From: Paracyclopina nana
Lineage: Eukaryota; Arthropoda; Copepoda; Cyclopoida; Cyclopettidae
Length of the DNA: 64,000 bases
Assembly: GCA_019096065.1 (NCBI GenBank)
Contig: JAGUCH010000008.1
Coordinates: forward strand, 4,593,001-4,657,000
Reading direction: 5' to 3'
This document shows positions 5,901 through 58,343 of this stretch, piece after piece. A model generated the notes under the pieces. That model was not told the DNA's origin. It saw only the letters and a program-made list of their open reading frames with translations, and did no database searches. Made by a program: the position numbers and the translations under genes. Numbering within the stretch: the stretch's first letter is position 1; every line of letters starts with the position of its first letter.

Positions 5901-8900
5901 CCAGAATGGGCAGATCATGAAATGCGCCATCCTGAGCTTCATGCGAAGAATATCCCTTGGCCTCTATGATCTCCACTTGGCCTTCATCGAATGGGCCCTC
6001 ATCAGCTATGATGACATCACCTTGGTCAGTGCTCTCGGTTCCTGATTCAGTTTCTATATCTTGCTGGTCCGTTTGGCGGAGATCATTAGGGTCACAACTC
6101 TCCTCGAACTTTTCATTGCCTAAACGTTCCTTGACCACACCTTCGCCACCCATTTGAGAATTTAGATTTTCCAAAAAGCGGCCTGCTTTGCACAAAAACA
6201 CCCTGGGTTCCAAGAAGTCTTTGGGCTCCATCACATTCCATTGTTGTCCTGTCCCACCTGCATCACCATCCCTGCATTTTTTACATGAGCTTTTCGACTC
6301 GGGTTGCAAATACTATGCTATTTATTACCTTTGAACTGAGGACTTTGCCACTTTCCTAGAGATGGCGCCACCATCGTATTGGTTGGTGGTCTCCAAATGA
6401 TCCCACCAGCCTCCACAATCGGGTGCAATTTGGCCGCACACTCCATTCGGCAAATTGTCACTTCTCCTATGCCCAAGCCCATATCCCAAAGCACCAGCTC
6501 TGACAAAGGGGTACACTGCTCCCTTTCTCTCCATCACGTGAGAAACATCCACGAAAAAGTCCAAAGCACTGCAAGAGGAGAAATCTTTTCCGTTCGTTTT
6601 GAGCTTCAACTCTGTGTAAAATCATGCTTACTGAACCACACTTGGGAGAGGGATATTTTGGACCGCAGTCGAAGCCAAAGCCACAAATGCAGCCAATGCT
6701 GTAGGTGCTTGACGTCGATTGCTGGAAGCCAATCCAAGCCTCCTTCCTATGCCCGAAATTGCATTGAAAACTGTATCGCCCATCCACCGTAGCCTCCCCT
6801 TTCTCTGCACAATTTTGGGCTTGTACACAAACGTCCTCTTGACAGGATCCAATTCTGCCGTGGCCTCAATGATTTCGTCTGCAAACTCACTACACAGTGT
6901 TTTTTGCATGCACTGGTTATGCACAGAGTCGAATGCCAGAAGGCCCCCAATCACATTTTTCACACCAGTTAAAATTGTTTCAGAGCCCAGCAGAGATTCT
7001 GCAAGCACTGGGAATTGGGCCTGGCTTTTTTGCACGAGTGTCACTAAAGTTATTTGTAGCAGGAGCAAGTTTGCAGCTATTTTTAGCATTGTTGCACCAG
7101 CTATGCTACCATGTCACAGGACCATCAGACACACGACTGAGGCTTCTAGTGAGAGTGAAATTTTTTTAAGCTTAACCTTATCTTGGGCCTCTCATCTCTG
7201 TTCCTCACTATACGCAGACTGTTATGTAATCAAGTTTTTTCATGTCCTACTTGATATAGGAATTGTTCACACCACAAAGTTTCTTTTTCCACTGATTTTG
7301 TACGTCGTGGTACTGCTTTAGGTCTCGCGATTAGGTTGCTCCTAGCACACAAAAAAGTTGGGAAAGTAGTGGGTGTCGCGAAAATATGTGACTTCACGTG
7401 TGGTGTCACCCGATTCCAGATTAAAAAAGCTTTGCCGCATGCGTGCATATGTGGTTGTCATGCCTTCTAAGATGACACGTGGTTGATGGGGGGGCAAGCA
7501 AAAAAGCTGATTTTCCCATCAATGGGCAGCTAGTTTAGCCTGTGTCAAACCGATATAGTAGGCCCATGATTTCCCTTTTTGCCTCGTTGAGCATGGCCAC
7601 AAGAAATGTCGGTTTTTCCCTACCTTCATGCAATAATTTTAAGCTTTTTAGCGTGTACACGCTGTATATCATCCTCGTCGTCTTTTTAGCCCGTTGGCGC
7701 GTTAGCTACCAAACAGGTTGTGGGAAATTTCATACAGAGCTACGTACATAGCAGAGAAAATCGACTCCATTATTTTATGGGCAACGAACTGCCGCCTTTC
7801 ACTGCTCAGGGCAAGAAGCTCAATTGTAGTAAATGGGTCAGATCATGTCAATTGAGCTAAGTGCTCCTCCACTCCATAATTATCTCTTTTGTTCAGGCTG
7901 GGATAAGAAACCCACTTTTTAGCCACGAGTTTAGTTGATGTCGTAGGTGTCTTTTTATCGCAGCTAGTTGCTAGTACACAGTCGCATGACAAGTCTGTTT
8001 CGTGTTGTGCGACATGTCTTCTTGCCGAACAATAAAAATGCACCTTTACTCTGCTGTGTGGCATAATGAGCTTGACTTCGCATTTGTGTGCAGATACTCG
8101 ACACAGAATATAGTATACTGTATATGTTTGCGATTTCTACTTTCAGGTTCTGACCCTCGTTCTTTCTGCAGTCACTCAAGCTCTGGCCAAGCCGAGCTTG
8201 TTACCAGGTGGGTCAGATGAACATCACCATCATGAGCATGACACCACTGACAATGATTACTATGATGACAATTCCGATCGATCATACAAATTTGGATTCG
8301 ATGCAGATGGCTACAGCCGTGAGGAAGAAGCTGATGAGAATGGCAATGTAGTTGGAAAATTCTCATACACCGATTCTGATGGTGTGCTGCGATCATTGAG
8401 CTACAAAGCTGGCGCGAACATTGGATTCGTACCGGAGGCTGGAAATTTGCTTGATCAAAATGTCATGGCTGGATTCAGCAGTTTTGGGCAAAAAACTAAA
8501 CCAGAGCCTTTGGCCTCGCCAACCACGTTGGTTAAAGCCTTAGTTCCACCACCTGAAAAGGCTCTACTGGGTAAAGGCACCAGGGGCAAAGGCATTATGA
8601 TTAAAGGCTCCCTGATAAAAAGCACGCTGCTTAAAGGCATAGTGGGCAAAAGCAACACTGGTAAAAGGCAACTTAACTAAAATGGCACAAAAAGAAAAAA
8701 TGGTATCACAAATTTATTTGTCTGTTTGTAAAAAATCTGACAGCAGAATTAGCATTTGCGTCGACGTTTTTGGGAAATGATATTTGATTGGTCAATGTAT
8801 GAAAGATCACGATTTTTGCGCTTAAGCTCACTATTTGAAGTGCTCTCAGTTGCGGGTAAGAAAACTTCTGAAGACTCTGGCTTTATTTATGAAGCAATTG

Positions 8901-10653
8901 CCATCAAGGAATCCCCTTTCAGAGTTGCCAATTGCTTTCATGAAAGTTTCCAAATCAGTTTTGTGCGCATGAAGATTTTTCATAAGATTGGCTTTCTGCA
9001 TTTTAAGCCTTTTGTAGCATCTTTTGAAAGTCTTCTTGTTTGGATTGCCAAGACATTTCTCTTGCACAGCAGTAAGTCCAACTGACAAAAACATACAGAA
9101 ATGCGGAAAATAGCACTGTTTTGCCGCCTAAAGTTTCCCTGATTTTCCGCAATCGTTATAACACGCGCGCGCATCTTCCCCACCTATTCATTATGAGTGA
9201 CTCACCTTTATTGCTTAAAGGTGCCTTTGACAATTTGTGCCTTTAGCCAATGTTGCCTTTGCCCATTATGCCTTTCGTCAGAGCGCTTTTTATCAGGGAG
9301 CCTTTAATCATAATGCCTTTGCCCTTGGTGCCTTTAGGCAGTATACCCCCTGAAAATACTGTCGGATATCCTGCACCTGTTGCCAACCCTGTAAAGTTCT
9401 ATGCTCGTGCACCTCCAGCACAACCTCTGAGCTTGTACGAAGCACCTCCCCAACCTTCCAGTCTATATGAAGCCCCCATCGCCCCAACCTTGCAAGTCCA
9501 GCAGCCTGAACCCACAATTCTTTTTGAAGCACCAGCGAATATTCCTGCACCAGTAGCTGCTCCTAAAATCACTACTCCTCAGCAAGTGGCACCAGCAGCC
9601 TCTATTTTCTACCAACAACCCACAGTAAATATGGACAATTGGGAGCTGAGCAAGGCCTACAAATTTGGTTACTCAGATGATTCCGATGACAGCGGCCTTT
9701 CCAGATCAGAAGAAGCTGATGAGGATGGAAACGTGAAAGGAATGTATAGCTACATCAATCCTCTGGGAGAAAAAGTGGTTGTACATTACAGTGCAAGTGC
9801 TGACAGGGGATTTGTGATTGAAAGTGAAGAAATTGCTGGAGAAGCTCCCCAACAAGATGACCTTCCTGAAATCGTATCAGTTGATGATGACGCCATCGAC
9901 ATACGGCAATATGCAAATGAAGATCAATTGCCTGCATCAAATGAAGATGTTGCCACTATTTTTTTCGAACAGCCTGAAATCAACCAGGACACGTGGATCC
10001 AAAGTAAAGCCTACAGATATGGGTTTTCTGGGGCAAACGATCTGTCTCGTAGCGAAGTTGCTGATGATGAAGGAGCTGTGTTTGGCACTTACACAATACC
10101 TGACATCAATGGCGAGCCCCTGATCGTAAGATACAAAGCTGGACCCAAAACTGGATATGTCATCGAGAATCTTGACGAAGTCAGGCGACGCACTGTGCCA
10201 TCTTCAGAGGAACCAATCATACCCACTTCTCAAGCAGCAGTAATTACGTTGAAAAGTGCCTCCATTGCACAAGAAGAACCAGCTCAAGATCCCTTTGTGG
10301 ACCCTTTGGCAATTGAAAATGCCGATAAGTCTTACCAGTTTTCATATGGCTCGGAAGAAGAGGGAAATCTCAGAGAGGAAGCTTCTGATGCAAATGGGAA
10401 CATAAAGGGTAGGTACAGCTATGTCAATGCCGAGGGCAACACAATCACTGTTCAGTACTCTGCTGGAGCTGAAAAAGGATTCGTGATTGAAAACGAGCAA
10501 GAGGTTCAGGAAAACGTGGCAAAAGCAACTCATGCAGCAGCAGTTGTAGGAGGAGGACAAAAGGATAGAAACAGCAGAATGAGAGTGGTGAAGAGAAGGA
10601 GAACCAAATCGCTGAACAAGCCATTCAATCCCAACAGAAGACGAGCCTACTAA
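2914..10653 (+). CDS. Four-domain Rebers-Riddiford cuticle protein
   Basis: Structural exoskeleton protein, 585 residues in this model. Exons: 2914-2931, 8147-8570, 9338-10653; phases 0 and 1, total 1758 nt. The joined N-terminus MGWRFIVLTLVLSAVTQALA is a good signal peptide. Next come a His/Asp-rich stretch and four chitin-binding (chitin_bind_4) domains at about residues 53-108, 255-312, 373-428 and 480-535, each with the pattern aromatic-x-F/Y-G/S ... EEAD..G...G.Y/FSY ... YxAG...GFVxE. A Pro/Ala-rich linker separates domains 1 and 2, and the tail is strongly basic. AATAAA lies at 10673-10678. Intron 2 has inverted terminal repeats. Without that splice, the upstream frame would run into a Lys/Gly-rich tail ending at 8680, and the downstream frame would begin with the antisense of that tail and lack a signal peptide. 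Exon 1 is the least certain part. Confidence 0.68.
2932..5454. other. Cuticle intron 1, left part: no gene seen
   Basis: This AT-rich sequence lies between the proposed cuticle exon 1 and the 3' end of the nested antisense gene. I found no coding exon, RNA gene or obvious repeat in it. The minus-strand AATAAA at 5388-5393 belongs to the nested gene. Confidence 0.5.
5388..5393 (-). terminator. Polyadenylation signal of the nested secreted-protein gene
   Basis: AATAAA on the minus strand, about 60 bases past the stop codon at 5455. Confidence 0.5.
5455..7089 (-). CDS. Secreted protein of unknown function
   Basis: Three exons, 7089-6632, 6568-6329 and 6271-5455, separated by introns of 63 and 57 bp (both GT-AG, both phase 2). 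They encode 504 residues; the spliced length is exactly 1515 nt. The N-terminus has a clear signal peptide (MLKIAANLLLLQITLVTLV, cut probably near QSQA-Q). The middle is Cys-containing with CGQIAPDCGGWWDH at about residues 200-215 and a Gly-rich stretch before it. The C-terminal 270 residues are acidic, rich in Glu, Asp and Thr, and look disordered. I recognise no family; the layout of a small Gly/Cys core plus a long acidic tail suggests an extracellular or matrix protein. The gene lies wholly inside the proposed first intron of the cuticle gene on the opposite strand. Confidence 0.75.
7090..8146. other. Cuticle intron 1, right part / upstream of nested gene
   Basis: This 1 kb interval precedes the nested minus-strand gene and ends at the acceptor TTTCAG at 8146. 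It should contain the promoter of the nested gene. I see no further coding exon and no repeat. Confidence 0.45.
8571..8677 (+). repeat. Left terminal inverted repeat of cuticle intron 2
   Basis: Consists of AAAGGC-containing units. Pairs with 9231-9337 in inverted orientation. If the intron is not removed, this arm is translated as a Lys/Gly-rich tail with a stop at 8680, so an intron-retention isoform is possible. Confidence 0.85.
8846..9094 (-). CDS. Small open frame inside the TIR intron
   Basis: An 82-codon ATG frame on the minus strand inside the inverted-repeat intron. The product is Lys/Asn-rich with three cysteines (EKCLGNPNKKTFKRCYKRLK and a later NCF). There is also a good acceptor-like sequence (TTTTTGTCAG) near its start, so it could equally be the last exon of a small gene. 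I recognise no family. It could be cargo of the element, a nested gene, or chance; the plus strand is also open over part of it. Confidence 0.25.
   Translation of the reverse strand: MFLSVGLTAVQEKCLGNPNKKTFKRCYKRLKMQKANLMKNLHAHKTDLETFMKAIGNSERGFLDGNCFINKARVFRSFLTRN
9231..9337 (-). repeat. Right terminal inverted repeat of cuticle intron 2
   Basis: Reverse complement of 8571-8677. The open frame through this arm starting at 9250 reads as Pro/Leu-rich peptide that is simply the antisense of the left arm, so it should not be annotated as an N-terminus. Confidence 0.85.
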
Positions 10654-10672: not shown

Positions 10673-10678
10673 AATAAA
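10673..10678 (+). terminator. Polyadenylation signal of the cuticle gene
   Basis: AATAAA 20 bases after the stop codon. The convergent zinc-finger gene ends only about 70 bases further on. Confidence 0.6.
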
Positions 10679-16100: not shown

Positions 16101-19100
16101 GAAGCGTAAGCAATTATGATGTCAAACATGCTTGTAAGTTTCACTTTATCTGTGTTTTTTTCCAGGAATGATAAATTCAAGCAATTTTGCATTGATTGCC
16201 TTGATTGCTTATCGTCAGTCTTGGAATATGCGCCATTAGACAAAAGTGTTGGAAAGTCCTCAGAAGAGTTGCTATTCTACCTTAAGACTACCTTCGGAAT
16301 TGATTCTTACAGTAGTCTCAAGTGTGTGCGAGCTCTTCTCCGTTGCATTTTTGGTGCGAACGCTGCTAGCCTACCTAATGTGTCGAACGACGCCATTACT
16401 GGGGCAACCATAGTGTTTTCTCAAACAACAGGCTTATTTTACCCATGCTTTGACCAACCATACAACGAACTAGTCCACACGTTCCATTTGGCCAGAGACT
16501 CAACCTCGACTCCTGATAGATCTGAAAGTCTGCTCTTTAAACCTTCTTCAAGCTCTTCGGGGTCTTCATCTCGAAGTTCCAGAAGAGCGTCAAAATCTTC
16601 TGTCGACAGGGCCACATTGTCTAACTACATCCGACTTTTCGAGCCAATGGTAATTAGAGCGTTGAAGCACTACACTATAACCAGCAATGTGGACCAGCAA
16701 AGTCAAGTCCTCCAGCTTCTGATTCAACTCGTTCACTTGAGAGTCAATTATTGCCTTTTGGATTCTGACAAGATTTTTGTGACTTATGTTCTGAAGCAGC
16801 TTGACCTGATTGAAGAGGGTCAAATGCATCGGGCATTCACGCTCATTCCAGATATGTTCAAATTCTTGGTCTTGTTGTCATACGAAAAGTACCATTCCAA
16901 ACCGATCATTGACATTCCCAAGATTCTTCAGTTGTGCGAGGGACTTTTTGCAAGTGGACAAAATGCTGAACTGTTTGTCATGCCTGCTCTAATCCCAGTT
17001 GCAGAGGATCTGTATTGTGTTCGATCTGTTTCAGACCAGTTGCAACAATCAGAATTAGATGCACAGCGAGAAGTTATGCTAACAATGCTTATTAAACTGC
17101 TCCCCTACACACCAGTAAGTTATTATTAATTGATGGCGAATTTAGAGAAACGTCAAAAAGTAACTTTTTCAGGTTTTGAAGCTAACGATTAAGATGCTGA
17201 GATCCACAAAATCTGAAGGAGATGACCGTTGGAGGAAATTATCCAGGGTGTTGGCGGAGGCTTTGATTCCGTTGATGGCAGCTCAAAAAATCCACATCGA
17301 GGAAAAGCTGCAGGTTGATTTGATGCATCAGATTTTCGCATCCTTGGCTCCTGGCACTTTACGACCGGTTGACCCACTTTTGTCAGCAATGCTGACATGC
17401 ACAGTGGATATGGCAAAGTTGCGGGACGTCCAAAGGTGGCTGGGCTTTGTGGTGTTAGCACTTCCAATTTTAACAAATCAAAGCCCTGAAGAAGCCATCT
17501 TAGCCAGGCTGGAGGAACTTGGCATTCAAATGATTGCTTCCACAATGTCAGGACAGGACGATGATGGCAACGTCGTCATGGGAGCCTCTTTGATGTCGAT
17601 GGATTCAAGTACGAGCACATCTAGTGATGCTTTAACCAGTGGGTCAAAGCCAGAAATAACCCTGGCCAAATTCCTTATCCAAGCCATTGGAGCTGCATGC
17701 ACCAAATACCACCACATGGTTTACTCCCAATTGACTGAGTCAACATCCACATTCCTGCAGCAAGAATTGTCGCATTTGCTCCTCTTTGTCACCTACATGT
17801 TCCAGTCTGGAAGATACTACAAAGTTGCCAAGTGAGTACATAATAGGATTAGCTTTCATAATTAATTTATCACCTTCTGCCTTTCTCTACGCAGGGCTGC
17901 CAAGACTCTAGCAAAACACGAAATGGATGGCAACAAAACGCAGATGTTATATACTCTGGAGTTTATTACGGAAATGTTCATTCAATTGGCTCACAGTTCA
18001 CCCTTCATTACGTTGCAATGGTGCTACATCCTGAAACTGATGAATCATTGCCCCCAGGCGTTGTGGTACAAAGTGTTGCAGCCTCAAGAACATCGAGGCA
18101 ATTGCTTGGAAAGTGAAAGCCTCAACTATGAAATATTGAGAAGGGGAGGCCTTGTGCTCCTCTGCGACCATTTGTGTGAAAATATTAGCAACGTCGAGCA
18201 CACCACGTGGCTAATAGTGAATTTCACTCAAAGCTTGGTGTGCAGCATTAACGAGAGCCCAGTGCAGGAATTTGTGATGTCTGTGCATAGAACAGCCTCA
18301 TCGTCTGGCCTTCTTCTACAAGCCGTCATCACGCGTGTGGCCACCGTCGGAGACAACGCCAAAGTGGCTTTCTTGAAGGATGCATTGGCCGTCGTGGAAA
18401 ATGTGCACAAGTCATTGGCTGGCAAGCTAGTGGGCTTTCTGGTCAACAAGTACTTGCTCGGGCCCCATTTGTCATTGACCAAGCAAGCGAATTTCATAGC
18501 GTGCACGCGTGTGGAAGCAATGCTGAACTCTCCCAAGGAAGATGTGTTTCTCCTGTTCTCTCCAGATGAGCTGGCTTCCATACTGGAGTCGTTAAAGTCA
18601 CGCAAATTAACCAAGCGCTTTGGACGCCTCTCCACGCTGTTGAACCGAGTTGCCACTGACTTTTTCGACTTATCTCCAATCACAGGCGTGGACGATGTGC
18701 GCACCTTCAATCCTGGCTCTATATCTCAAGTACGGCTTGATCGAGATTGGTTGCTAGGCCAAATTCGTGTGCGTTGCTGCCATCCCGAAAATCTGACAGC
18801 AAAAGCCAACACCAGCAATGGCCTCGTTTGTGCGAAAATTCTGTCCACCTTGGAAAGTGAGGAGGAAATACTGGAGATCATGACCCTGAATGACTTCAGT
18901 CTGTCCGTGCTATCAAGCTGTCTCGTTTACGACTCTCAGAGGAAGGCCAGTGGCCTTTTTAGTGCCTCTCGCAAGATTCTATTGAGCCATATCAAGACCA
19001 TGACCGAGACTTTGCCTCTGCCCTTCGGCTTATTTAGGCCCAATAGTTGGCCCATGTCTAGCTCAGACTCACGATACACCGAATGGCTCGAGTCGACGTT

Positions 19101-21750
19101 CAATAATGGTGACTTTGTGCGAACCTTATCTTATTTATTGCCCGCCGTGCAAGTGGCCTTTGAAACGAAGGCCTTGGAGGAAATGGACGAGGACGATTGT
19201 TTTGCGCTCACTCGATTAGTGGTGCTTGTGCTCGAGTTCTGCAAATGGGTGAATTGTGACTTGACTGACGAAAAGATCGTTATGGGCAGAGAAGAGACGT
19301 CAGTCCAGTGCTTCAAGGTTGTTGCTCTGGCCTTGGCCGACCACCAAGTTTCAGAGTTCCTTTCAAGAGACCAACAAAGAACGAGCCTATGGCCCACGTC
19401 AATCTGCTTAATGCTGAACGACATCATAATGGTGCGTTTTTCAATCGCCACCGACCAGGTGCCCATTTGCTCGGCCTTTAAAGTGGCCTCGGAGGAAGGC
19501 CAGGAAACGGCTACCATTGTCGCGTGCATCAATCTCAACGAACTCTTCACTGATTTGCTGAACGGGCGAAAAGCGCAGGCTGTCATGCCTACGTGCTGGT
19601 TTGACTCGTACAAGGCAATCATCATTGGCCTATGTCGACTCTCAAAGTTTACTTCGTATCTGCGCAACCCTCCTGAATTGTGGACGTTGGGCTGGTCACC
19701 TCTAGTAGATTTGGACTCGTTGTCCTTTCCCAGCATCCCCATTGACTATTTGCACGACCATGACATACTAGTTGTCTATGCCAAAAGACTGCTTGCATTG
19801 GGCTGGAGGTCTCGCAAACAATTTGAAGAGTCTTGGATGGCCTTGCTTGGAGTGTTTAGCCTCTCGAAAGAAGAGCTAAGCGATGCAGAAGTTTCAGCCT
19901 TGGCTCAAGTCTCGACAATTGCAGTGTCGGCCATAACAGGCCTTTTATTGCAGACGATATTGCTACCGCTACCGGGTCATCCTGGGCTCTCCAGGCTCAT
20001 TCACCACCCCAGGGACTACCCAAGCTCATTTTTGGCTACCAAGCGAGGCCAAAAGCTGACTTTGATCCAAAACCTCATTCACGAGGGACTGAAGGGCCAG
20101 AATGTCTGTTATCTGCCGGTTGACAGTGTTTTCAACACGGAGCGCTGCAACGGCCTTCACGCTGACTTATCGTATGGGTTCGGCCAGTTGTCAGTCCATT
20201 ACATCTTGAGCAGCATCAAATACAACAGTGTATCATCGCACAGTGAACTAGATAACAAGTCGACCAAGTCATCAGCAGCAATGCCATTGGCCTTGATCCA
20301 GCGAGAAGATGCGATGAGCCATTCTGGCCTTGACACGAGGTCTTGCCTGATATTTTTGCAAGAACTTTATGGCCAATGGCTTACAGAAGAGACCCCATTA
20401 AGCCTTTTGACTGAAACTGTGCGCTCCGTGCTTGTGCTCAGTGATCTCTTTTCGGAGACGTCCCAATACCAGTGGATGCTTGACAACTTTCAAGAGATCC
20501 AAAAGACCCACCCATTTGAGGACGAAATGCTGACAAACTTGCTACGCATCGGCATTTGCAAAGCTGTCTCGGTTCTAGGCTTGGCAGATCCTGATTTAAT
20601 GGAGAGACTCAGAAAGTCTTTGGAAGTGGGATTAAAGGCTGCCAACTTGCCCACGCGGATGGGATGCCTGCATGGCTTGTTGTACTTGGCTCAAAGTGAA
20701 AGCCCTGAAGTGACAGCAGAAGTGAACTCACATATTTTACCGTTTGTACTGGATTACTTGCAAACCTACTTGCAGCACGCGTCCACGCCACACGTGGGCC
20801 AAAGTGAGGCTCATGTGGCCTTGATGTGGTCGGTGGCCTTCCATATTTTGGAAAACAACAGGGAAGATGTGGTAGACCACGACGAGGCTGTAGCCGCGAG
20901 GAAAAAGGACTGGGGCTCGAATATGCTGAAATTGGCTGTAAGTGAGGCGTCCAAGGGCAGCAGTGGCACATCGCATGGCGTCTATCTCGTCCTCTTGATC
21001 GGCCTCGAGCGACTGGTCATTGAGCAAGTGCTTGACGAGGTCATTTTCAACAAAGTCATCAAGCTGACCACAGATTTGCTGACCGAGCCGAATCCCATGG
21101 TTTTCATACCAGCCGTCCAACTATTTTTGGCCTGCATGTACAGCAACAAAAACTGGACTGAGGTCGCTGGCCTTGGACAAGATCCTGAGCAACTGATGCA
21201 AGCCATGGAGCAAATGAGCATTTTGTTCGACTGTGTCCGAAGATCTGGCGTCAACGAGGCCAAGTTGCTCTGCGACATTCTGCCCAAAGTCCTTGCTGAC
21301 TTTTTCTCTGCTGCTGACGTGATGAACCGAGTCATTAACGAGTTCATTTCTCCGGGCCAGCCGCACCAAGTCCTCCTGGCTGGGATTCTCTTTGCTGTGT
21401 TCCAACAGGCAGCTGGCCAAGATCAAATGGTGATGATGCAACAATGGGTCCTCAGCTCATTGCCCAATTTCACCAAGCGGTCTCCGGTGTCTCACTCCAT
21501 TTGGTGCTTGACAGTTTTCTTCATTTCTGCCTCAGCCAATAATCCCTACTTGCAAGCCATGTTTCCGTACTTGCAGCAACGCTTCGGATGCTACAGTCAT
21601 GAAGACAAAAGGCTCTTCTGCTTGGCTGCTCGCCACTTTTACCACAGCCTTGGAGAAGACAGGACCTCGCAAGAGCATTTTATTCAGACGATCAAAAATG
21701 TGGCTAAACCCAGAACTCCCTACTTCGATCTGTTGAAATCCCTGGAATGA
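13107..21750 (+). CDS. HTT: Huntingtin
   Basis: Complete huntingtin orthologue of 2760 residues in seven exons: 13107-13192, 13249-14683, 14746-14943, 15006-16105, 16166-17114, 17173-17831 and 17895-21750. Spliced length is 8283 nt with all phases consistent. Huntingtin is a very large HEAT-repeat scaffold that works with HAP40 in vesicle and autophagosome transport. The N-terminal amphipathic helix MATLDKLVKTVESLRLYQ is plainly the N17 segment, but one Gln is followed by Ser-Pro, so the polyglutamine and polyproline tracts are absent. Conserved blocks include ELYKEIKKNG, RPQKSRAYIVNL, NDNEVNLLLKTF and EDPQLRGST. The region at about residues 360-470 is acidic and Ser-rich, as in other huntingtins. 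Intron 2 (14684-14745) is a GC-AG intron with AAG|GCAAGA. The last exon is unusually long (3.9 kb). Vertebrate huntingtin is about 3140 residues. Confidence 0.95.
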
Positions 21751-29059: not shown

Positions 29060-29270
29060 GATTTTATCTATTTATATATGTAAACAATTTATAAAACAAG
29101 CTAATAAAATAGCTGAGCAAATTTTGTAAAGTAAAAATCGAGTGGCATTTTTGCGGGCTCGAGCTTGCAAGAGCCAAGTAATGCTACGAGATTTTTACTT
29201 TGCAAAATGAGCTCAGATATTTTGTAAGCCTGTTTTATAATTAGTTTACATATATATACGATTTTATATG
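29060..29270. repeat. Imperfect 200 bp inverted repeat (hairpin)
   Basis: The sequence running in from about 29060 (ATATGTAAAC ... CAAAGTAAAAATC-like) matches the reverse complement of the sequence running back from about 29270. The arms are some 85-95 bases with several mismatches, meeting at a GCTCGAGC-like centre. It looks like a small foldback element or MITE remnant. It begins about 30 bases after MITE copy A. Confidence 0.7.
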
Positions 29271-36400: not shown

Positions 36401-39400
36401 ACAATTTTCACCATGTCGGCTCGTAAATCATTTGCCTCGTTGCAAACTCGCGAAATAGTAACGAGAACATTTACATGGCTAGTTTGAGAAGACATTCAAA
36501 ATTTCCGGTTAACGTCAATTTTTCTGCGAGCGTGACTGCACCAATTGTATAATAAGAAATTTGACCACGATTGAATTTTGCCGCCAGTTTCTTCTAGGAA
36601 AAATGAAATTCGTTTAGAAATTGCATTATGACAAAAGAGGCTAGCAAAGAAGCAAAATAACATCAATTTTCAGAGTAATACGAGTACTTTAGGCAGACCA
36701 AGTGGCAAAATTTCAGATGGTGAGATCAGCAGACAAAAAAATCTCTGAACTGACCATAGGATATGCATTTGCATGAAATTGTTAGGTACTACGATTCAAG
36801 CCTAGATGCGTGACCATATAGAGAAACACAGCATTATAATTATTATTCCACCTTCCAAGTCAGACCAGTTCCAGATTAATTCAGTCATGTCATCGATTCA
36901 TATGCATGGCGTTCTTACAAGGTTTCCCTTTTTTTCAATTGCGTGATTTTACGAAAACTCGTCAACAAATGCATAATGTTTTTCTCACACAAAATCAGAA
37001 ATCGATTTGTCTGTGCTGACTGATTGATAGGTCGAGATGACATCAATTTCCGATTGGCACAACTTCTGCTCGACTATTTTTGGAAGGACGACTTTTATTC
37101 GATTACCACAATGGTAAAAAACCTAATTTGGCTAGTGGAATGAAATTCGTGTGAGTGAGACGCAGTCAGGTGTTGCTTTAATTAATGAAGATCCATGAGT
37201 AACTGATTACCTGACGTAGCATAACAACTCAAGTCACGAAACTGGCAGCAATAGTAAAGCCAACAAAAACAAAATAACAGCTGAGAATCAACAATTCTAA
37301 AAAGAGAAATGGACGATTAATTTCGTTTAGCTAACTGAGCTTGACAACATATATGAGCTTGACAGAAATGTTCATGGTGATTGTGATGAAGAAGCTCTAG
37401 CATGAAACTTTGGAACAAATTGGAAATTTATGTCAGTTGGCAACTGACTGTTCTTCTTTCAGGGGTAGAGAGAGGCTTAATGCCTTTCTAAATGGGTACA
37501 AAACAGCTATGGTCGAAAATTTAACGCTTGACTCGTTCTCAAGCTCACATCCTTAGCACGAAGTAGAAGAACAGAAGACACTTCTGAAATTCAAGACAGC
37601 TCAATTTCAAACTTCAAAGTTAGGGTAGCGTAGCACAGCGGGACTTATTTGTACTCCAAACACATTATGCTGCTATCGGTAATGAGGTTTAACATCTTAA
37701 TTTCACAGTTCCATAGTCAGTTTTTTTATTTCAGTTATGCGTTTTCATCGTTTAAATTGCATCAATCTGTCTCAGTCCTTGAGTCTTTGCCTATGAGTCT
37801 CAGTCCTTGGGTCTCAGTCCTTGAGTCTCAGTCCTTGAGTCTCAGTCTTTGAGTCTCAGTCCTTGAGTCTTTGCCTATGAGTCTCAGTCTTAGAGTCTCA
37901 GTCTAAGAGTCTCAGTCTTAGAGTCTCAGTCTTAGAATCTCAGTCCTTAGAGTCTTATTAGCCTTTGAATCTCAGTCTTTTTTACCCTCAGTCTTTGAGT
38001 CAGTTCTTTAATCTCATCATTCTTTGAGAGACTTTAAGCCTCAGATTTTTAGTTTTATCCATTGACATGGTATTCGGTCATGATCACCTTTTAGGTCTTT
38101 TTTCAACCTGACCCAAAGTGCATGGGAAGTAGAAGTAGCTACTAGTGTGTGCGGTCTCTTCTCCTTGTTAAACAAGAGTGGCTTTGACGAGTTTAAGCGT
38201 AACCCGATCCGCTTTCCATGAAAATTACAGGAATTTTTACACATTTCCCTGTTCAAGATCTTGTTCCTTCAGCTTTGAAGAAAGAGTTGCACAGGAAATG
38301 GACTTTCTCTTTGTGTGCCAAGTGTGACCCTTGGGACACTTTTTTACACTTGGCTACCTTTCCAAACGGATTATCTGAACACACCTAGTGCAACTATACT
38401 CAACATGAGATTTCAGTTTATCTCTGCTCCAACTGGATGCTCCAACTGGATGTTTTTTATGGTGTCAAAATATGGTGGGATTATTAAAGGAATGCTATCT
38501 TCTTTCTTGTGTTTTAGAAGGGTTTTTGGCCTGAACACAATCCAGCTGCTTTTGAGCTCCCCCTTTACTACTTCCGACCCCCTCTTAAATGCAGCAGTAA
38601 CTTGACCACTATCAGAGCCGGCCAACAAACCTTCTAAATGGCGACGAAACGAGATGAGCAGAAACTCAATTGAGACTGGATTCCACCACGGTCCAATGCA
38701 ATTAAGCCTTAGCTTGAAAATGCTCCAAAATAGCTCACCATCACCCCAACAATAACAACAACAGCTTAATTAATGCAGCTAGCTGGATGTAAACTTCTGT
38801 CTGTGAAGCCCAACTCGAAGTTGAACTATGTGATCAATATGATAGAGTAGGAAGGGGTTGTGAAGTGGTCTGGAGCTATTGATTTTCCATGGAAGAAGTG
38901 AAACTCTTGAAGCACCCACTTGAAACTTCAAAGTTGACAAATCAGGCTGATGCAAATGTGTCGATGATTCCATTTTTAGCAAAGAAAGAGGAATGCTTTC
39001 TCGTCTTGGATGAGCGAAAATGTCTACTTCCTCCCCTTGCAGCACTTGAAGAATATTCCAAGTTGTCAGTAGGTATAGAGTATGAAATGGCAAGGGAGAT
39101 CTATTGAGCTCGCTGGAATGCCTAAGTTCTCACAGTTTATCCACCTGGACACCCATGAAATGTGGGCGTCTTCAGCGAGAAATTGCACAAGTATATACGA
39201 CCCCACCAGAACTTTTCCCTTTTTTTCGTTAAATAATCGATTACTTATCATGGTTGATTTTAGTTCTCGATGATTACTTGTCTCGGTTGCAAATCGGTGA
39301 CGGAATTCAATGCTGAGAAATCAATTTGCTAATGAAAAGTAACTGATATTCAAAGTTGATTATTTCCTGATCATTTCTTATGCTTGGCCACTTTCAGCAG

Positions 39401-57711: not shown

Positions 57712-58343
57712 CACAGTGGGGTCATCTCATTGCGAAAAGTGGCGTTTGGCGGGATAGTGATATATTCTAGTACTTAATGCCCTAGGCCTTTCATACGTAC
57801 ATTAAAGGCCTAGTTTTTTTTAAAAAAAATTGACTCTAATTGATGATTTTCCATTGAAAAGTGCTTTAAAAACGGTTTTGTCTGCTATTAATGAGTTTGT
57901 TATTGTTTTGAATATTCAAAAAGGGCTGCTGAAGTCGGCAAAATGGGCTCAGTGAAAACTGTGATATCTCAAAATGGCGCCAAAATGCGCAAATAAAACT
58001 TTGTCATAATGATTTCAGGTATTCAACTGAATGTTTTATGCAAAAATTGTTGAGGAATTTTGAGAACTAACGAGCAAATTGATATTTGAAAATGATTTAA
58101 AAAAGCTTAACTTCAGGGTCCCCCTTTCGCGGAAAAAATTGAGCGAATCGCAAATTTCCATAAACAGTTATCGTAGTATGTAATGTAACCAAAATTTAAT
58201 TTTAATGCCACAATCATGATCCTATTACTTTCGGCCTCAAAATTTCCAATTTTTAACTACCGTGTTTTCAGTGAGTTTGAAAGATGCTGCCATTTCGCGA
58301 GATTTCCGAACGCCACTTTTTGCAACGGGATGTCCCCACTGTG
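57712..58343. mobile_element. Transib-like non-autonomous element (632 bp)
   Basis: The ends CACAGTGGGG / CCCCACTGTG belong to terminal inverted repeats of about 38 bases (33 identical). They are flanked by a 5 bp target duplication CTGCT (57707-57711 and 58344-58348). A CACAGTG start with a 5 bp duplication is the pattern of Transib transposons, relatives of RAG1; the first seven bases equal the RSS heptamer. The interior has no coding frame. A hAT origin is less likely because no 8 bp duplication fits. Confidence 0.72.

Follow-up and report, generated by a model that had tools for sequence, protein, structure and literature searches.

Can a transposon that lands in a coding exon supply the intron by which it is later removed from the RNA? 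The question is raised by a cuticle gene in the 64-kb stretch of DNA analysed here (the window), whose coding sequence is interrupted between two conserved parts. An earlier note had read the interruption as an intron made by a transposable element, with splice sites as follows.

8571-9337, + strand: first proposed intron, GTAAAG...CTTTAG, 767 nt, predicted and in frame (donor score 3.51, acceptor score 1.51)

Our best reading is that the locus carries one transposon-derived candidate intron of a known kind. We give a probability of about 0.64 to removal of the element from the RNA as an intron through any in-frame pair of sites, a prediction drawn from the DNA sequence. Terminal inverted repeats (TIRs), an 8-bp target-site duplication (TSD) and an open reading frame (ORF) across the empty site back the transposon origin and the insertion into a coding exon, whereas splicing at 8571/9337 is compatible with the sequence.

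The gene on either side of the interruption was delimited as two coding exons.

8147-8559, + strand: coding exon left of the insertion, within ORF 8114-8680, ending in the first TSD copy; one RR/Chitin_bind_4 domain
9349-10653, + strand: coding exon right of the insertion, within ORF 9247-10653, with its stop codon at 10651-10653; three RR/Chitin_bind_4 domains

Joined across the proposed intron, the ORF is in phase, as had been claimed, with one Chitin_bind_4 domain to the left and three to the right. Pfam assigns PF00379 (Chitin_bind_4) to the left exon at E 4e-13 and to three stretches of the right exon at E 1.6e-36. RR cuticle domains point to an arthropod as the source of the DNA. The insertion point lies in the Pro-rich linker that separates domain 1 from domain 2 in this cuticle gene of four domains. 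Beyond the stop of the right exon, an AATAAA is found at 10673. A comparison of the left exon with the PDB returned two weak, irrelevant matches only, and no relatives of the right exon were found in the viral contigs. The left half had also been credited with a signal peptide; its hydrophobic core, VLTLVLSAVTQALAKP, is recognisable by eye, but the exon that opens at 8147 lacks a start codon, which calls for a first exon farther upstream. A scan of 7151-8100 yielded no such exon with a donor scoring above 3. A weaker candidate at 7986-8006 has a donor score of 2.39, and the acceptor before 8147 scores 8.73, this site having belonged to the training set of the matrix.

What are the boundaries of the inserted sequence? 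The following features define them.

8560-9348, no strand assigned: foldback-type nonautonomous DNA transposon, 789 bp, recognised by its arms, its TSD, the 15-nt periodicity of the arms and internal ORFs with no credible Pfam match
8560-8670, + strand: left TIR, built of ~15-bp units AAA(G/A)GC-N9
9238-9348, - strand: right TIR, pyrimidine-rich on the + strand by eye
8552-8559, + strand: left TSD copy, CCTGAAAA, codon phase 0
9349-9356, + strand: right TSD copy, CCTGAAAA, codon phase 0

The arms at 8560-8670 and 9238-9348 form an inverted repeat of 111 nt each, 86% complementary with 15 differences, which is the longest in the 64-kb window when arms are searched up to 4 kb apart. The earlier description of the repeat holds for its inner part: the donor GT (8571-8572) and the acceptor AG (9336-9337) both lie within it, and 8571-8623 departs from the mirrored last 53 bases of the proposed intron at two positions in the difference list, 8571 and 8583. 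The similarity that had been noticed to run slightly into the exons is real, but its extent was underestimated, as the repeat continues for 11 bp past each proposed splice site and reaches the TSD. The two TSD copies match at 8/8 positions and stand directly outside the outer ends of the TIRs. Because the repeat ends at this exact 8-bp direct repeat, the unit is a 789-bp element flanked by a TSD. Among 63,180 window positions, an 8-mer is repeated at the TSD spacing at one, namely 8552/9349; when 6 bp of slack was allowed at each end, 20 of 4,000 random placements gave an 8-bp repeat.

Removal of the element together with one TSD copy leaves a single reading frame, ...LVKALVPPPENTVGYPAPV..., which has the final stop only; the empty site, with the element taken out, would read CCTGAAAATACTG. 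Since this join restores one ORF, the element was inserted into a coding exon, and we consider the insertion of a foldback-type transposon there almost certain. A transposon could also have landed in an ordinary intron that was already present, without making one, and secondary insertions of transposable elements in introns are generally known to be common. Such an origin, already disfavoured, is highly improbable here, as the TSD is in codon phase on both sides and the empty site is one ORF with no intron left.

To which class does the inserted element belong? Both arms are periodic at 15 nt, at times 16, with AAA(G/A)GC recurring at 15 or 16 steps, and none of 5,000 base shuffles of the right arm reached its periodicity at 15 nt. 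No transposase was found among the five ORFs scanned (19 are listed around the element), the best Pfam match, at E 0.06, being below the cut-off. With its long arms of short tandem repeats and its 8-bp TSD, and with no transposase to be recognised in it, we class the element as a nonautonomous foldback-type DNA transposon. The length of the TSD fits several superfamilies (Mutator, P, hAT), hAT elements also giving 8-bp TSDs. Most foldbacks fall in Mutator, with exceptions, according to passages of the paper on Tetris (PMC4079207), and Galileo is described in parts of PMC4168063 as a P-superfamily element with TSDs of 7 or 8 bp.

No second copy of the element was found in the 64-kb window, where BLAST found the two arms themselves and, beyond them, only matches of 13-14 nt at E values no better than 0.16. 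The 12-mer at the left end occurs, with up to 2 mismatches, at 8 places in the window (4 in the element and 4 outside; 4.4 expected by chance), and Rfam, at gathering scores, gave no match in the window. In viral contigs, a 21-base arm pattern matched twice, in L001 and L002, over 22 nt each. The surroundings of both matches are unlike the element, with no 15-bp array at the match, and the unrelated 15-bp-period repeats that L001 and L002 hold lie elsewhere; having no flanking similarity, the two matches were rejected as relatives and are presumably due to chance. A degenerate four-unit array pattern matched 65 viral stretches and at least 119 stretches of genome contigs. These were likewise rejected as relatives, the pattern being too loose as judged by a BLAST of the element against 186 stored loci, which besides the two 22-nt matches gave weak ones in L078 and L082 (E 0.006, 69-78% identity). 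The stricter array pattern TAAAGGCACCARGGGCAAAGGC had 0 matches in viral contigs. We regard membership of the element in a multi-copy introner family as improbable.

The window contains other repeats in their own right. A second TIR element at 57712-58343 has 38-nt arms that are 87% complementary and begin with CACAGTGGGG, and it is flanked by the 5-bp direct repeat CTGCT. It looks like a nonautonomous Transib-type element, on the basis of a CACAGTG end and a 5-bp TSD, which we take to be Transib features. At 29073-29256 there is a near-palindromic hairpin element whose 77-nt arms are 84% complementary and separated by 30 nt; beyond the arms it may be flanked by an 8-bp direct repeat, GATTTTAT. 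A tandem array at 37769-37979 shows periods of 14 and 42 bp, with 4.9 copies of the 42-mer.

How would a foldback element leave the RNA of a cuticle gene? We propose that a transposase, presumably supplied in trans, inserted the 789-bp element in the coding exon, and that its purine-rich left arm would offer donors and its pyrimidine-rich right arm acceptors. With donors available on one side and acceptors on the other, the spliceosome would most likely treat the greater part of the element, or almost the whole of it, as an intron. The intact coding sequence on both flanks also suggests an element that is cut from the RNA as a new intron. Use of the outermost pair, 8571/9337, would add ten residues to the Pro-rich linker; this agrees with the earlier hint that the insertion had added residues, the predicted 30 nt left behind being 11 + 11 from the element and 8 from the TSD. 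RNA that stayed unspliced would meet a stop at 8680, shortly beyond the end of the left arm.

GT is mirrored as AC, so that an end of perfect symmetry has no way to place GT and AG at mirrored positions. At the proposed sites 8570-8571 and its mirror 9338-9337 depart from the symmetry and read (exon-intron boundaries marked by a slash) G/GT on the left and AG/G on the right on the + strand. This favours splicing, though the point is made post hoc and from one copy. Broken symmetry is nevertheless not required for splicing, since symmetric arms still offer in-frame pairs at unmirrored places: when both arms were made like the left one, the best pair scored above the observed one, and when both were made like the right one, below.

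Are 8571 and 9337 the sites that would be used? Compared with 35 introns inferred in the window, the donor at 8571 lies at the 20th percentile and the acceptor at 9337 at the 3rd. The length of 767 nt is also large for the window, where the median inferred intron is 66 nt and 3 of the 35 are longer. Splicing at exactly these two positions, as predicted from sequence, is doubtful. Two other introns would also keep the frame.

8661-9337, + strand: alternative in-frame intron with the best-scoring donor, CTG/GTAAAAGG, at the 60th percentile (splice scores)
8642-9246, + strand: alternative in-frame intron with the highest total score, chosen by the crude gene model (splice scores, gene model)

An intron at 8661-9337 would add a further 30 residues. 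Of the donor/acceptor pairs in the arms and their surroundings, 36 were tested, and 8 of these keep the frame and leave it open. The element may thus be spliced from sites inside the arms, whether 8661-9337, 8642-9246 or several of them alternatively, with the arms partly exonised in frame. This is possible, if somewhat doubtful, and its probability is already contained in the one given above for splicing by any in-frame pair. Consistent with such splicing, 15 nt is five codons, so that the frame survives a shift by any whole number of units. In the right-exon frame, the right arm (9247-9339) has a codon score of 3.97 over 30 codons, or ~0.13 per codon, near the 0.16-0.17 per codon of the exons themselves (24.49 over 140 and 69.63 over 436 codons). 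The left arm, in contrast, has a codon score of 0.17 over 35 codons, which is practically nil. The gene model chose 8642-9246 because the right arm scores nearly like coding sequence and the left arm does not. That choice carries little weight, since the codon table was trained on these cuticle exons and the model attached unlikely upstream exons to the cuticle gene. The model also merged the huntingtin gene with its neighbour and placed an antisense gene across it, and false calls are therefore among the 35 introns that serve as the yardstick.

The huntingtin gene itself is represented at 17866-21750 (+ strand) by an uninterrupted ORF of 1,294 codons, with matches to the Htt bridge and C-HEAT models as well as to PDB chains of huntingtin; ORFs upstream of it, from about 13235, probably belong to the same gene. 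Within the element, the right arm at 9247-9339 encodes, in the right-exon frame, a hydrophobic stretch, PMLPLPIMPFVRALFIREPLIIMPLPLVPLG, which could have a signal-like role in a transcript that began within the element.

How much does an in-frame pair tell us about splicing? When symmetric arms were given 15 random substitutions in simulation, a pair that equalled or surpassed the best one observed (8661-9337) arose in 2,021, 402, 1,247 and 325 of 3,000 runs under four settings (11-67%). An in-frame GT-AG pair was accordingly rejected as proof of splicing, being common in simulated arms, and frame compatibility is weak evidence.

The frequency of such pairs by chance is also consistent with an insertion that is not productively spliced at all, as a disruptive allele or as one haplotype of a polymorphism. 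Its transcript would then either be destroyed or be translated up to 8680, where the stop would leave a protein of one domain that ends in a basic Lys/Gly tail. The left arm does continue the open frame of the left exon up to the stop at 8678-8680, an ATTAAA at 8600 in the same arm could serve as a poly(A) signal, and the TSD is still perfect. The splice sites, moreover, are of mediocre quality and lie buried within a stem according to structure prediction. The two arms should pair in the RNA into a single long hairpin, at whose base the outermost splice sites would sit, and the predicted fold is very stable (z -10 against 20 shuffles). The predicted probability of being unpaired is 0.12 for the donor at 8571 and 0.07 for the acceptor at 9337; in 32 window introns the donors average 0.38 with a minimum of 0.12, and the acceptors 0.43 with a minimum of 0.09. 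The donor is therefore buried like the most buried of these introns, and the acceptor deeper. Buried and mediocre sites, together with the unusual length, count against splicing.

The state of the right exon argues in the other direction. It keeps 437 codons with no stop and all three RR domains, though the arms differ at 11 positions in their 99-bp core. If the arms were identical at insertion, this corresponds to ~0.06 substitutions per site per arm, and a neutrally evolving right exon acquired no stop in 4.75% of 2,000 simulations that modelled substitutions alone, at 0.06 per site; at 0.03 per site the chance is 22%. Of the 11 core differences, 5 cluster in 8624-8632 and may predate the insertion, which weakens the argument from age and would make the intact exon indecisive if the arms already differed at that time. 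We consider a disruptive allele unlikely, and we retain the removal of the element as an intron as the preferred reading.

Intron-making transposons are a leading explanation for episodic intron gain, and a clear arthropod case with an empty site readable from its TSD would be a testable instance of such gain. How does the candidate compare with systems already described? Introner families with TIRs or TSDs are widespread (PMC9860276, Gozashti et al. 2022), and that paper places introners, among animals and land plants, in two groups only, both of them animals, with copepods named. In one Aureococcus family the element brings both splice sites with it and generates an 8-bp TSD, and the mRNA gains 12 bp, 4 from the element and 8 from the TSD (PMC9860276, Fig. 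2F-G). The element here resembles it in having splice sites within the element, an 8-bp TSD and extra mRNA bases (predicted, 30 = 22 + 8). Aureococcus introners, however, are multi-copy, with an orthologue shown to lack the intron, whereas the present element is a candidate represented by one copy in the 64-kb window; their family medians are 30-654 nt, and the arthropod element is longer and has tandem-repeat arms.

Other intron gains have been credited to transposons. A review counts 35 gains in Oryza, Drosophila, Oikopleura and Zea that it puts down to transposon insertion, on indirect grounds with no in vivo demonstration, and cites the maize Ds case of Giroux et al. 1994 (PMC3443670). As in Ds-type intron gain, an exonic transposon here is a candidate to act as an intron; the maize element is of another type, and those cases are backed by comparisons or RNA, unlike this one. 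In Daphnia pulex, passages of PMC4202315 report 33 direct repeats of 4-12 bp between the exon end and the far intron end of neointrons, some of which leave or take exon bases. Those recently gained arthropod introns resemble the candidate in their direct repeats, but their origin is ascribed to the repair of staggered breaks. For Amoebophrya introns with inverted repeats at both ends, hairpins have been proposed to bring the exon ends together (PMC7789003, in part). Among the matches listed in our literature search, there was no case of a foldback element spliced as an intron, and one may still be in print.

More speculatively, the locus could represent an intron-making foldback family in an arthropod, with stop-poor 15-nt units that give donors on one side and acceptors on the other in frame-equivalent steps. 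Insertion in a suitable codon phase would then be tolerated whichever unit was used, and the symmetry of the TIRs would be broken exactly where GT and AG must differ. We think such a family quite improbable.

As for the architecture, sea-urchin TU elements have foldback arms with 15-bp tandem repeats and an 8-bp TSD. By description, the 15-bp units and the 8-bp TSD are common to those elements and to the one here, and their host is a sea urchin, not an arthropod. Tetris of Drosophila virilis, as parts of PMC4079207 describe it, also has long TIRs with internal tandem repeats, no conserved ORFs and a TSD of 8-10 bp, but its units are ~220 bp and its arms far longer, compared with 15-bp units and 111-bp arms here. 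Foldback-like Galileo, again compared by description from parts of PMC4168063, shares the long TIRs with internal tandem repeats and, in D. willistoni, a TSD of 7-8 bp, and differs in its ~140-bp units (in one copy) and far longer arms. The candidate intron is of a kind already known, and its less usual part is a foldback architecture with five-codon units.
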